Shown: in pieces, positions 14,530 through 23,227 of the stretch
How the letters are laid out: each line of letters starts with the position of its first letter
Position numbering within the stretch: position 1 is the stretch's first letter
Origin: an uncultured Pelagibacteraceae bacterium
Lineage (GTDB): Bacteria > Pseudomonadota > Alphaproteobacteria > Pelagibacterales > Pelagibacteraceae
NCBI GenBank assembly: GCA_902560075.1
Contig: CACEKE010000004.1
Coordinates: 41,001-105,000, forward strand
Reading direction: 5' to 3'
DNA length: 64,000 bases
Notes under the pieces: generated by a model
Seen by the model: the letters and a program-made list of their open reading frames with translations, nothing else
Databases searched by the model: none
Told to the model about the DNA's origin: nothing
Made by a program: the position numbers and the translations under genes

Positions 14530-15249
14530 ATGATTACTGAAAAAAAAGTCAAAATCACGCTTGCATTAGTATATTTGCTATTGATTACCGCTTTTTTGTG
14601 GTTTTTGTTTACAAATTTTTCCATTAATGACTTTACAAGTTATGAAATTATAAAATCGAATAGAGATACTCTAAACAACTTAAAAAATATTAATATTTTT
14701 TTTTCTATATCAGTATTTTTACTTATTTCAATAATATGGATTCTCTTACTCGGTTTCGGTTCCCCTTTGTTTTTAATTGGTGGTTTTATTTTTGGAAAAT
14801 GGGTTGGAACAATTGTTATTTTAATTGGAATAACAACTGGATCAACTTTACTGTACATTTTCGCCAAATTTTTAGTAAGAGATTATATATTTAATAAATT
14901 TTCTCAAAAATTTAGTTATTTGACTGAAAAATTTAAAAAAAATGAACTAATTTATTTTATTATTTTTAGGGCTGTTGGTGGAATACCATTTTTTATACAA
15001 AATTTGCTACCTATATTATTTAACATAAAAATTAAAAATTATTTAATAGGAACATTTTTAGGAATGGCAATTCAGGTTTTTATTGGTGTATCACTAGGTG
15101 CTGGAATAGATAAACTAATTGATGAAAATGAAAATATGCCCTCAATATTTGATGTGATTTTGATGCCTGATATATATTTACCTGTAATTGGAATTATAGG
15201 TATATTTGTTTGTGCATTTTATTTCAGGAAAAGTTTTTTTAAAAATTAA
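14530..15249 (+). CDS. TVP38/TMEM64 (VTT/DedA-like) membrane protein
   Basis: LGFGSPLFLIGGFIFGKWVGT...FRAVGGIPFFIQNLLPILFNI. Confidence 0.85.
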   Translation: MITEKKVKITLALVYLLLITAFLWFLFTNFSINDFTSYEIIKSNRDTLNNLKNINIFFSISVFLLISIIWILLLGFGSPLFLIGGFIFGKWVGTIVILIGITTGSTLLYIFAKFLVRDYIFNKFSQKFSYLTEKFKKNELIYFIIFRAVGGIPFFIQNLLPILFNIKIKNYLIGTFLGMAIQVFIGVSLGAGIDKLIDENENMPSIFDVILMPDIYLPVIGIIGIFVCAFYFRKSFFKN

Positions 15250-19451: not shown

Positions 19452-19525
19452 GCCTTGGTAGCTCAGGTGGTAGAGCAGAGCCCTGAAAAGGCTTGTGTCG
19501 GTGGTTCGAGTCCGCCCCAAGGCAC
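19452..19525 (+). tRNA. tRNA-Phe (anticodon GAA)
   Basis: GCCTTGG-TA-GCTC..GAGC-A-GAGCC-CTGAAAA-GGCTT-...-GGTGG-TTCGAGT-CCGCC-CCAAGGC-A; followed by CCT, so CCA is not encoded. Confidence 0.96.
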
Positions 19526-19567
19526 CTTATATAAATAAACGTGTTACATCTTAAAGCTTGCATTAAA

Positions 19568-19638: not shown

Positions 19639-19851
19639 ATGAGTACATTAAAAGGTAAAGTTAAGTGGTTCAACGGAAAAAAAGGCTACGGATTCATAGA
19701 GCGTGAGGATGGTGAGAAGGATTGCTTCGTTCATGCGAGTCAAGTTCGTGAAGCTGGTCTAAAATTTTTGAATGAAGGCGATGCATTAGAATTCGAAATA
19801 GAATCTGGTGAGAAGGGCCCGTCGGCGATAAACCTAAAAAAGGTTTCTTAA
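19639..19851 (+). CDS. cspA: cold-shock domain protein
   Basis: [32 protein letters not shown]. Confidence 0.95.
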
Positions 19852-19869: not shown

Positions 19870-19912
19870 GTATAGGGGTAATATAGTTTTATTACTATAT
19901 TTATTCCTATAC
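19870..19912 (+). other. long hairpin downstream of cspA (about 17 bp stem, one bulge, 8-nt loop)
   Basis: GTATAGGGGTAATATAG-ttttatta-CTATATtTATTCCTATAC, with two G·U pairs; no U-tract follows. Confidence 0.55.
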
Positions 19913-20075
19913 ATGAACTATTGCATTTATTAAAAAAAATGCTAATTAATTGTCCATGATTAAAAAAATTAAAAATTCTTATTCAATTTACAGACATTTC
20001 CACCATGGCTGCATAGCCATTATTTAATCATTTTAAAATTTAAATTTAAGAACAATTAGTATAAAACAAAGAAAG

Positions 20076-20150
20076 GCACGGGTAGCTCAATTTGGTTAGA
20101 GCAGTGGCTTGTGGAGCCAAAGGTTGAGAGTTCAAGTCTCTCCCCGTGTA
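20076..20150 (+). tRNA. tRNA-His (anticodon GUG), G1·U72 and A73
   Basis: GCACGGG-TA-GCTC..GAGC-...-TTGTGGA-...-GAGAG-TTCAAGT-CTCTC-CCCGTGT-A; CCA not encoded; possible 27-43 G/A mismatch in the anticodon stem. Confidence 0.93.
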
Positions 20151-20158
20151 CGCCCAAA

Positions 20159-21550
20159 ATGAAAGAAAAAAAAAAATTAATAGCAAGTTTACCTAATGGT
20201 TTCCAAGATAGCTGGGAAAGTTCTCTTTTTTTAAAAAAAAAATTAATTAAAATAATTGAACAAAACTTTATTAAATTCGGTTTTAGTCCTCTTGAAACAA
20301 GTCCAATGGAATTTAGTTCTATGATAGGAAATTCATTAGCTGAGGATGAGCAGAATTTAATGTCAGATATTTATACATTTAGTGAAGATGGTGCTGATAT
20401 TTCTCTTATTTATGATCTTTCTATGCCACTCGCCCGATTTTATAGTCAAAATTACTTGAATTTACCAAATCCGTATAAAAGATTCCAGATTGGAAGAGTA
20501 TTTAGACGCGAGAAGCCCGGAAATGGTAGGTATAAATCTTTTGAGCAATGTGATTGTGATATAATCGGAAAATTTGATGTTAAACAAGCAAACGCTGAAT
20601 TAATAAATATTGTCGCGAGTACTTTGATAGATTGTGGATTAGATTCATCTGACTTTGTAATAGGCGTAAGTAATCGAAAGATAATGCAGGGATTATTGAG
20701 TCAGCTCAACATAGTTGATGAAATACAAAAAAAGAGAGTTTTAAGGGCAATAGATAAATTAGATAAACCTGGTTTTGGTCTTCAGGGGGTTGAGGAATTG
20801 TTAAAGAAAGAAAGAAAAGATGAAAGTGGCGCAATAACTAAAGGAGCTAATTTAAATGATTTCCAAGCAAATGAGATTATAGAATTCCTTCAAATTAAAG
20901 ATTTTAATGAAATTTCAAAAAAAATTAATAATCCATTAACTAAAGAAGGAATTATTGAGATGGAGGACTTATTTAATATTTTAAGTTATGGAAATTATAA
21001 AAGCCTGGTAAAATTTGATCCTTCAAAAATTCGTGGACTCGATATCTATACAGGATTCACTTTAGAAACTAACTTAAACTTTAAAGTTAAGAATGCTAAA
21101 GGCAAGGTTGTTGAGCCAGGATCAATTTGTAGTGGAGGTGAATACTTAGTGACAAAATTTAAAGGTGATCCATTCTTAGGTTCTGGAATTTCAATTGGAA
21201 TTACACGTTTAGTTTGGTGTTTGTCTCAAAAAATAAAAAATGAAATAGATGAAAATAAACCCGTTCTTGTTTGCGTAATGGATGAAAAATTTTTAGATAA
21301 ATATTATGCATTATTGAATAAATTGAGAAATAATGGGATTAATTCTGAAATATTTTTAGAAAGTAACAAAAAGCTATCAAAACAATTAGAATATGCAAAT
21401 CGCAAAGATTTAAAATTAGCGATCATTTGTGGAGAGAATGAGTTCAAAGACAATACTATTACTATTAAAAATCTTAAAGGCCTGAAGGGCAGCAATCAAT
21501 CTACAGTTTTAAAAGATGATTTAATTGATGAAATCAAAAAACTTATATAA
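20159..21550 (+). CDS. hisS: histidyl-tRNA synthetase
   Basis: Class II aaRS with VFRREKPGNGRYKSFEQCDCDIIG; MKEKKKLIASLPNGFQDSW start preferred; the track start at 20111 lies inside tRNA-His. Confidence 0.94.
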   Translation: MKEKKKLIASLPNGFQDSWESSLFLKKKLIKIIEQNFIKFGFSPLETSPMEFSSMIGNSLAEDEQNLMSDIYTFSEDGADISLIYDLSMPLARFYSQNYLNLPNPYKRFQIGRVFRREKPGNGRYKSFEQCDCDIIGKFDVKQANAELINIVASTLIDCGLDSSDFVIGVSNRKIMQGLLSQLNIVDEIQKKRVLRAIDKLDKPGFGLQGVEELLKKERKDESGAITKGANLNDFQANEIIEFLQIKDFNEISKKINNPLTKEGIIEMEDLFNILSYGNYKSLVKFDPSKIRGLDIYTGFTLETNLNFKVKNAKGKVVEPGSICSGGEYLVTKFKGDPFLGSGISIGITRLVWCLSQKIKNEIDENKPVLVCVMDEKFLDKYYALLNKLRNNGINSEIFLESNKKLSKQLEYANRKDLKLAIICGENEFKDNTITIKNLKGLKGSNQSTVLKDDLIDEIKKLI

Positions 21551-22544
21551 TCAGATAACAAACTTTATCAAATCAAAAAATTATAAAGAACTATCATTAA
21601 ATCCTGTGATAGATTTAAAATATATACGTAACGAAAAACTAAAAAAATATCTTTTTACATTTAAGGATAATAAAACTAATAAAACTTTCGCATTAAGACC
21701 AGATTTAAGTTTAATGAGCCTAATAGAGTTTTCAAAATCTAAAATTTCAAAAAAAACAAAAATTTATTATTCCGGGGATTCCTTTAGAAAAAATCAAAAA
21801 ATGAATACCCAAATAGGTTTTGAAATTTATAATTACAATAAACAAAAAGATGAAAAAGAAATTATTTTAAATTCTGCAAAAATTTATCAAAAAGTTATAG
21901 GGGTAAATGGAAATTTAAAAATTGGAAATGCTCAATTATTTCAAGCTGTTTTGAAACAACTTAAGTTAGCTAAAAGGTGGCAAGATAGATTAATCTCATT
22001 GAGACAGAACAAAAAATATTTTAATGAAATATTAAAAAGGCTTGAAACTAATAAAGATATAGATGAAAACGAATTTCAATTAGACAAAAAAATGTACATC
22101 AATCTTAAAAAAATTAATCAAAATGAAATTATTGCAAATAGAACTGTAAGAGACATATTAAAACGCTTTGAACAAAAAATATATATTCAGCCAAGACCAG
22201 AAAACGGAAAAAAATGTGTAAAAGTTATCAGAGAATTTTTGAAAATTAAATGTCCTATAAAAAAAGCTCCTGTTGTATTATCGAAATTTTTTACAAAGAA
22301 TAATTTAAATATAAAAATTTCACAGGATTATTTTCCAATTAAAATTAACAAAATAGGGAAATTAAAAATTTATTTTAATAGTTCTGAGATGCCTGAAGTT
22401 GATATTTATAGTGGATTTGTTTTCTCAATCAGACCTAGATCAAAAAAAATAAAAAGATCTATCGTAGGAGGTTCTTACAATTCTTTGAGTAGTTCTTTGG
22501 GTTTAAGAAAAATAAATGCATGTGGTGCAGCAATTAATTTATGA
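21525..22544 (+). CDS. hisZ: ATP phosphoribosyltransferase regulatory subunit (HisRS-like paralogue)
   Basis: HisRS-like core (FALRPDLSLMSLIEF...KIYYSGDSFRKN), between hisS and hisG; 'MPEVDIYSGFVFS'. Confidence 0.85.
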   Translation: MMKSKNLYNQITNFIKSKNYKELSLNPVIDLKYIRNEKLKKYLFTFKDNKTNKTFALRPDLSLMSLIEFSKSKISKKTKIYYSGDSFRKNQKMNTQIGFEIYNYNKQKDEKEIILNSAKIYQKVIGVNGNLKIGNAQLFQAVLKQLKLAKRWQDRLISLRQNKKYFNEILKRLETNKDIDENEFQLDKKMYINLKKINQNEIIANRTVRDILKRFEQKIYIQPRPENGKKCVKVIREFLKIKCPIKKAPVVLSKFFTKNNLNIKISQDYFPIKINKIGKLKIYFNSSEMPEVDIYSGFVFSIRPRSKKIKRSIVGGSYNSLSSSLGLRKINACGAAINL

Positions 22545-23227
22545 AAAAACAGATAGTAATTAGTTTAGTTAGCAAAGGCAGGCTCAGATCTGATACCCTG
22601 AAATTATTTAAAAAGAAAAAATTAAATATTAAGTCAAAAGGGGAAAGAGATCTTATAGGATATATAAAGTATAAAAATACTCTAATTAAGTGTTTATTTC
22701 TTCACGCTCGAGAGTGCATAGACTCCTTAGCAAATGGAACTGCTGATATAGCTATATCTGGAAAAGATTTATTATTCAATTCAGAGCGAGAGATTCAAAA
22801 AAAAATTAAAGTTTATAAAGATTTAAATTTTGGACATGCTTCATTATCAATTTTTTGCATGAATACATGGATTGACTGTCAAACTATGCTAGATGTTTCA
22901 GAGATAGCCTCAGACATGTTAAAAAAAAATAGACAACCAATGAAATGCTCTACTAAATACAGAAAGCTGGTAGAGAATTTTTTAGAGGAAAAAAATGTCA
23001 AAAATGTAGAGGTGATAGACTCGAAGGGCGCAACCGAAGTAATGGCAAGAATTAATCAATGCAGTCTTGTAGCCGACATATCTAGCACTGGTAAAACAGC
23101 TAAAGATAATGGATTAAAAAAAATTAAGGATGGTCTCATACTGAACTCAACTGCAGCTTTACTTGTGTCGAAAAAATCAGCAAAAAACAGTTATGTCTCG
23201 AGTTTTTTACGTTTACTTTCTAAGTAA
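22541..23227 (+). CDS. hisG: ATP phosphoribosyltransferase (short form)
   Basis: VISLVSKGRLRSDTL; NGTADIAISGKDLL; VEVIDSKGATEVMARINQCSLVADISSTGKT. Confidence 0.93.
   Translation: MKKQIVISLVSKGRLRSDTLKLFKKKKLNIKSKGERDLIGYIKYKNTLIKCLFLHARECIDSLANGTADIAISGKDLLFNSEREIQKKIKVYKDLNFGHASLSIFCMNTWIDCQTMLDVSEIASDMLKKNRQPMKCSTKYRKLVENFLEEKNVKNVEVIDSKGATEVMARINQCSLVADISSTGKTAKDNGLKKIKDGLILNSTAALLVSKKSAKNSYVSSFLRLLSK

Follow-up and report, generated by a model that had tools for sequence, protein, structure and literature searches.

The window analysed here, a 64-kb stretch of DNA (64,000 nucleotides) whose first letter is position 1, comes from a SAR11 bacterium of the family Pelagibacteraceae. Its histidine locus runs from a cold-shock gene through a short histidine-rich reading frame and a hairpin into the gene for tRNA-His, which is followed directly by hisS, hisZ and hisG:

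19639-19851, + strand: cspA-like cold-shock gene, the upstream neighbour (ORF, Pfam PF00313, synteny)
19907-19912, + strand: CTATAC, weak candidate -10 element ahead of the leader ORF (13/37 representatives)
19923-19942, + strand: AT-rich inverted repeat GCATTT...AAATGC before the leader ORF (read from the sequence; appears in the fold)
19956-20027, + strand: leader ORF encoding MIKKIKNSYSIYRHFHHGCIAII and a stop, with His codons at 19995, 20001 and 20004 (conservation, codon variation)
20005-20020, + strand: terminator-like hairpin ATGGCT-GCAT-AGCCAT, whose 5' end falls within the last His codon (fold, conservation)
20021-20034, + strand: T-rich rather than all-T tail past the hairpin (read from the sequence; conserved ATTTAATCATTTTA in relatives)
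20060-20065, + strand: TATAAA, probable -10 box adjoining the tRNA (-10-like hexamer in relatives)
20076-20150, + strand: tRNA-His (GUG) with G1-U72 and A73, CCA not encoded (ARAGORN, Rfam)
20151-20158, + strand: spacer CGCCCAAA from the tRNA discriminator to the hisS ATG (read from the sequence)
20159-21550, + strand: hisS, histidyl-tRNA synthetase (HisRS) without a His residue (TIGR00442, 296 bits)
21528-22544, + strand: hisZ, overlapping the hisS end (PF13393; NF008953/TIGR00443 matches below cut-off)
22541-23227, + strand: hisG, ATP phosphoribosyltransferase, overlapping the hisZ end (PF01634)

The gene order hisD-infA-cspA-hisS-hisZ-hisG is kept in 95 of 110 loci. Read from the ATG at 20159, HisRS is 463 aa long, matches TIGR00442 above its cut-off and aligns at its N-terminus with relatives sharing the same start position; the HisRS of the nearest named record is 99% identical to it. 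Its motif 2 loop, the place of a Gly in the derived alphaproteobacterial HisRS, reads KPGNGRY when taken straight from the sequence. The tRNA gene is placed at 20076-20150 by Rfam (65.5 bits) and at 20076-20151 by ARAGORN, and is the single tRNA-His copy found in the window's genome. A search for a second tRNA-His elsewhere in two other genomes found none.

An earlier note on this DNA described a tRNA-His ending at A73 (20150) and separated from the hisS ATG (20159-20161) by an 8-nt gap with neither a terminator nor a Shine-Dalgarno (SD) sequence, together with a TATAAA at 20060-20065 upstream of the tRNA. All of this is borne out by the sequence, with CGCCCAAA filling 20151-20158, and the layout is of the tRNA-punctuation type, the tRNA abutting the hisS frame with no terminator between them. 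The same arrangement is found throughout the family, with tRNA-His directly upstream of hisS in 105 of 105 loci, a sample in which some loci are one genome fetched twice and which a limit of 93% HisRS identity reduces to 37 representatives. The junction is also present in a member of another genus of the family (L172). The spacing in close relatives, whose lack of conservation the note would take as refuting its reading, is largely constant, with 3-6 nt from CCA to ATG in 95/105 loci, and departs from this in six, where it is 26-29 nt, a departure that tells in part against the note. This subgroup lies near the window (L002, L034, L035, L037, L038, L039) and some of its members carry a small hairpin in the gap. 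Four of the 105 loci, including the window, do not encode CCA, and their ATG lies 8-15 nt past A73. In the window, tRNA-His no longer has an encoded CCA and reads ACGCCCA where relatives read ACCA. CCA is encoded by 25 of the 28 tRNAs called for this genome and is likewise missing from its tRNA-Phe and tRNA-Leu(GAG). An apparent loss of tRNA-His where ARAGORN missed it was ruled out, since a covariance model recovers the gene (50.6 bits).

In the sister family hisS has no tRNA abutting it. In three of its genomes tRNA-His lies 1.4 kb upstream of hisS, past a transporter gene on the opposite strand. The 28 loci scanned from further families of the class have no tRNA-His within 1.5 kb upstream of hisS (0/28), and adjacency as a general alphaproteobacterial trait was rejected on these loci. 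Judged from sequence comparison, the junction is ancient.

Two details that had drawn attention to the junction proved to carry little weight. The missing SD sequence is real but uninformative, since an SD core precedes only 4/61 window genes (2/61 in the control); the 16S tail in this genome still holds CCTCC. The absence is thus normal for this genome and was rejected as a special feature of hisS. A GTG in frame with hisS does lie at the anticodon, as the note stated, but is attributable to chance, as the frame relation is divided 22/8/7 among the 37 representatives, with 8/37 in frame, and the anticodon GTG was rejected as a hisS start because its frame is not conserved.

Short gaps between a tRNA and a start codon are also common in these genomes. 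A tRNA lies within 8 nt of an ATG for 5/28 tRNAs in the window's genome and for 6/26 and 6/30 in two other genomes of the genus (the 6/26 takes in the His junction that ARAGORN misses), against 0/27 in a sister-family genome (Fisher p about 0.01). The tRNAs standing 3-8 nt before an ATG (G000 L124, L133, L134, L136; G029 L142, L146, L156, L157, L162) include those paired with genes for a CCA-adding enzyme (Gln), acyl-CoA synthetase (Leu), NDUS4 (Pro), a GIY-YIG protein (Glu) and pterin dehydratase (Gly), all named by Pfam, and a Leu/trigger factor pair whose partner was named by sequence. On these counts the flush tRNA/ORF junction is a habit of the family and a wider SAR11 trait that by itself indicates no dedicated mechanism; what sets tRNA-His/hisS apart is that tRNA and synthetase are cognates, together with the elements found upstream. 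The counts would suit an explanation by compaction only, in which spacers have been pared down around a constitutive tRNA-His/hisS transcript and the short gap has no regulatory meaning. We consider this unlikely, as it leaves unexplained the conserved His-codon leader ORF with its hairpin, as well as a HisRS free of histidine.

An upstream ORF with at least two His codons near its end is present in 105/105 loci and 37/37 representatives. The 94 unique leader peptides contain 11.6% His, and those of relatives end in ...THRHHFHAGCKLAI, ...RGVHAHFHAG or ...STHRVCFHSL. The last His codon is kept across 84 unique sequence windows, with entropies of 0, 0 and 0.56 at its three positions, and this restriction of variation to the third base is a coding signature. 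At least three His within six residues occur in 85/105 leaders versus 89/5909 control ORFs (1.5%) from the same loci, a comparison that ignores relatedness and whose dereplicated figure is 26/37. In the other genus of the family (L172), MKNIVLNHTHHHTHAKHGLGN precedes the flush tRNA-His-hisS, and in the sister family a similar leader stands before hisS without the tRNA in 5/5 genomes (peptides MFKFKHHHYHI, MHHHYHI and MIIKHHHSHI). A comparable leader was not found in other class members except for one weak match, and the Rfam His leader covariance model gave no match to the region even at E up to 10. On the simplest history, the leader dates back at least to the origin of the order, and tRNA-His came in between it and hisS in the family of the window. 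The leader ORF very likely senses charged tRNA-His.

The hairpin at 20005-20020 is the sole terminator-like site of the window's region (mean of 0.1 in shuffles). In 37/37 representatives, versus 4/740 simple mononucleotide shuffles, a hairpin holding three or more G-C pairs starts no more than 15 nt from the last His codon. The stems differ by lineage yet stay complementary (GCTGGC/GCTAGC, ATGGCT/AGCCAT, ATAGCC/GGCTAT), and strong hairpins are predicted in both sister-family regions folded (z -2.8 and -3.4). A consensus fold of 10 sequences shows this one hairpin and no antiterminator; its alignment shifts the window by one register, which makes the covariation count uninformative.

The reading favoured here, to which we give a probability of roughly 0.6, is that a leader-peptide attenuator sensing charged tRNA-His controls a single operon, tRNA-His-hisS-hisZ-hisG. 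The layout of the locus and its conservation stand firmly on the sequences. When His-tRNA(His) is scarce, a ribosome translating the leader would stall at the His codons and cover the 5' arm of the hairpin, allowing the polymerase to continue into tRNA-His and hisS. With ample His-tRNA(His), the hairpin would form and transcription would end before the tRNA. As no antiterminator was found, the ribosome would need to mask the hairpin directly. The coupling of tRNA-His and synthetase supply that the earlier note had proposed from the tight gap gains support from the leader ORF, the hairpin and the histidine-free HisRS, but not from the gap itself, which belongs to the wider SAR11 trait.

The proposed attenuator resembles that of the E. 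coli hisL type: in both, histidine genes are preceded by a short ORF in which His codons cluster and by a hairpin immediately after it. It differs in that no antiterminator was found, the T tail is weaker, Rfam gives no match, and the unit controlled would be tRNA-His, hisS, hisZ and hisG. The pheM leader of E. coli pheST is an attenuator by which a tRNA synthetase is controlled in response to its own amino acid; in SAR11, by comparison, the gene for the cognate tRNA would itself be downstream of the attenuator. The parts are of known kinds, and what is new is the tRNA gene inside the unit proposed to be controlled. We know of no bacterial tRNA gene under a leader-peptide attenuator. Leader peptides reported as convergent precede hisS*/hisZ in Bacillus (Naville and Gautheret 2010, PMC2965389), and these also place a His-codon ORF before a gene of the hisS/hisZ family; they belong to another phylum, and the accessible text of that report mentions no tRNA gene in the controlled unit.

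Where transcription begins bears on how much of the operon the attenuator could control. Nearly every locus has a -10-like hexamer, in most cases TATAAA or GATAAA, 14-21 bp ahead of tRNA G1, and most close pairs differ less in the TATAAA segment than in the DNA immediately preceding it. A sigma-70 consensus scan found no good -35 for the TATAAA at 20060, nor any promoter at CTATAC 19907-19912, a hexamer located 169-178 nt upstream of the tRNA in those representatives that have it. The TATAAA adjoining the tRNA probably supplies a basal transcript. Attenuation of the tRNA gene at the level of transcription is likely, and a TATAAA promoter past the hairpin could bypass the attenuator and free tRNA-His and hisS from its control. 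Carried to its end, this becomes split control, in which leader and hairpin terminate a separate upstream transcript (as an attenuator or as an insulator for cspA) and tRNA-His and hisS are expressed mainly from TATAAA, unattenuated. The near-universal hexamer and the conservation around it speak for such a division. It is nevertheless quite improbable, because the His-codon leader would then regulate nothing, the sister-family leader stands directly before hisS, and TATAAA is without a good -35.

That hisS is carried on the tRNA-His transcript, as the earlier note argued, is strongly supported by the family-wide junction and by replacements of the tRNA body during which the TATAAA segment and the hisS start stay in place. 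The tRNA-His bodies (20076-20150 and L001-L110) fall into eight types below 80% identity, for which the HisRS tree requires no fewer than 12 changes, and one pair of loci (L013 and L016) shares 95% identity in hisS and 88% in the promoter segment but 64% in the tRNA. For a hisS transcription start within the tRNA gene itself, which would lengthen the leader independently of tRNA processing, no supporting evidence was found, and it is extremely improbable, since bodies have been replaced many times between fixed flanks and an internal promoter could hardly persist through eight such types.

Under the attenuator reading, RNase P and a 3' nuclease would excise the tRNA from the transcript, leaving a hisS leader of about 4-8 nt, a length that fits a genome hardly using SD sequences. 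RNase E is the likely 3' nuclease because no RNase Z was found: 21 genomes, some incomplete, hold no match over cut-off, and a weak 256-aa match (L201) was rejected because other MBL families score far better. RNase E was found in 12/13 genomes, while RNase PH was not found over cut-off in the genus genomes (G000-G012) and was over cut-off in 3/4 sister genomes; exonucleases of the RNase D type and RNase J were found as well. Incomplete genomes limit what can be claimed about absent RNases. Cleavage by RNase E near CCA|AAAA|AUG appears the likeliest release of the tRNA, and a near-leaderless hisS mRNA is its plausible outcome. Animal mitochondria show a similar punctuation, where the tRNA abuts the next frame and excision would give an almost leaderless message, although in SAR11 the layout is found at some tRNAs only and excision is predicted.

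If the tRNA stayed uncut, it might itself regulate, with HisRS binding the tRNA-His joined to its own mRNA and blocking the AUG, much as threonyl-tRNA synthetase acts on the tRNA-like thrS operator. The acceptor end lies 4-8 nt from the AUG, which is predicted to be single-stranded beside the folded tRNA, and the anticodon GUG, G1-U72 and A73 are kept in all 29 unique tRNA-His. These identities are required for charging anyway, the 26-29 nt subgroup holds the ATG well away from the tRNA, and nothing indicates a sufficiently long-lived precursor; such regulation is very unlikely. The A73 of all 29 SAR11 tRNA-His, and hence the lack of a G-1:C73 pair, agrees with the derived alphaproteobacterial tRNA-His, in which A73 replaces C73 in 7/8 SAR11 strains (Amrine et al. 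2014, PMC3937112); the adjacency, the leader and the tRNA replacement do not figure in the accessible part of that account. A Pelagibacter RNA survey (PMC2704228) does not mention hisS or histidine, and a search for literature on SAR11 tRNA-His together with hisS found nothing further.

The composition of HisRS adds a further feature to the locus. Across 105 loci there is no His in 48,658 tblastn-aligned residues, and none in 2,183 residues of sister-family HisRS (5/5 genomes); a single His in one full-length translation sits in an aberrant C-terminal tail. By comparison, His makes up 1.43% of residues in window genes, 1.56% in hisD and 1.51% in cspA, while HisZ (0.68%) and HisG (0.60%) are below average and the window's own HisZ contains none. 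A histidine-free HisRS could still be made during histidine shortage. HisRS of related alphaproteobacteria hold 0-4 His and those of other alphaproteobacteria mostly 4-8, suggesting that depletion began earlier and became complete in the SAR11 order. The depletion is, on these counts, partly common to relatives without the leader, a point against the attenuator reading. Another window gene (14530-15246, 239 aa) also lacks histidine, which could be chance.

SAR11 bacteria are among the most abundant organisms and are thought to have few regulators. If the attenuator reading is true, the level of charged tRNA-His would set the expression of the gene for that tRNA, of the cognate synthetase and of the entry into histidine synthesis, a very compact form of regulation, and the cutting and SD-free translation of tRNA-joined messages would become testable at this locus. 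The fuller scheme is put forward tentatively, at a little short of even odds: the tRNA gene would be the attenuator's first product, low His-tRNA would raise tRNA-His, hisS and hisZ-hisG together, excision would yield a near-leaderless hisS message, and the tRNA gene would have joined, within the order, the attenuator that stands straight before hisS in the sister family.

The source of the replaced tRNA-His bodies was sought among genomes and viral contigs, and no donor was found in those searched. One rare type occurs in 1/199 genus genomes searched. A phage origin was rejected, as three tRNA 3' patterns had no exact match in 2.9 million viral contigs and phage records gave generic tRNA similarity only; remoulding from another tRNA of two genomes was likewise rejected, no other isotype exceeding 0.74 identity. 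The tRNA-Phe gene (19452-19526, near infA/cspA) is also mosaic, with seven types and 12 changes on the HisRS tree.

The elbow of tRNA-His is variable as well. G18 and U55 are treated in reviews as conserved tRNA positions. Among the 29 unique tRNA-His, 18 have G18 with U55, 11 have A18 (D-loop) with G55 (T-loop), including those of L005, L010, L013, L032 and L036, and none is mixed; positions 54-58 vary between U-A, A-U and G-G. The state changes at least eight times on the HisRS tree, and A18-G55 is also present in the tRNA-Phe and tRNA-Val(GAC) of one genome (G029; L153, L160).
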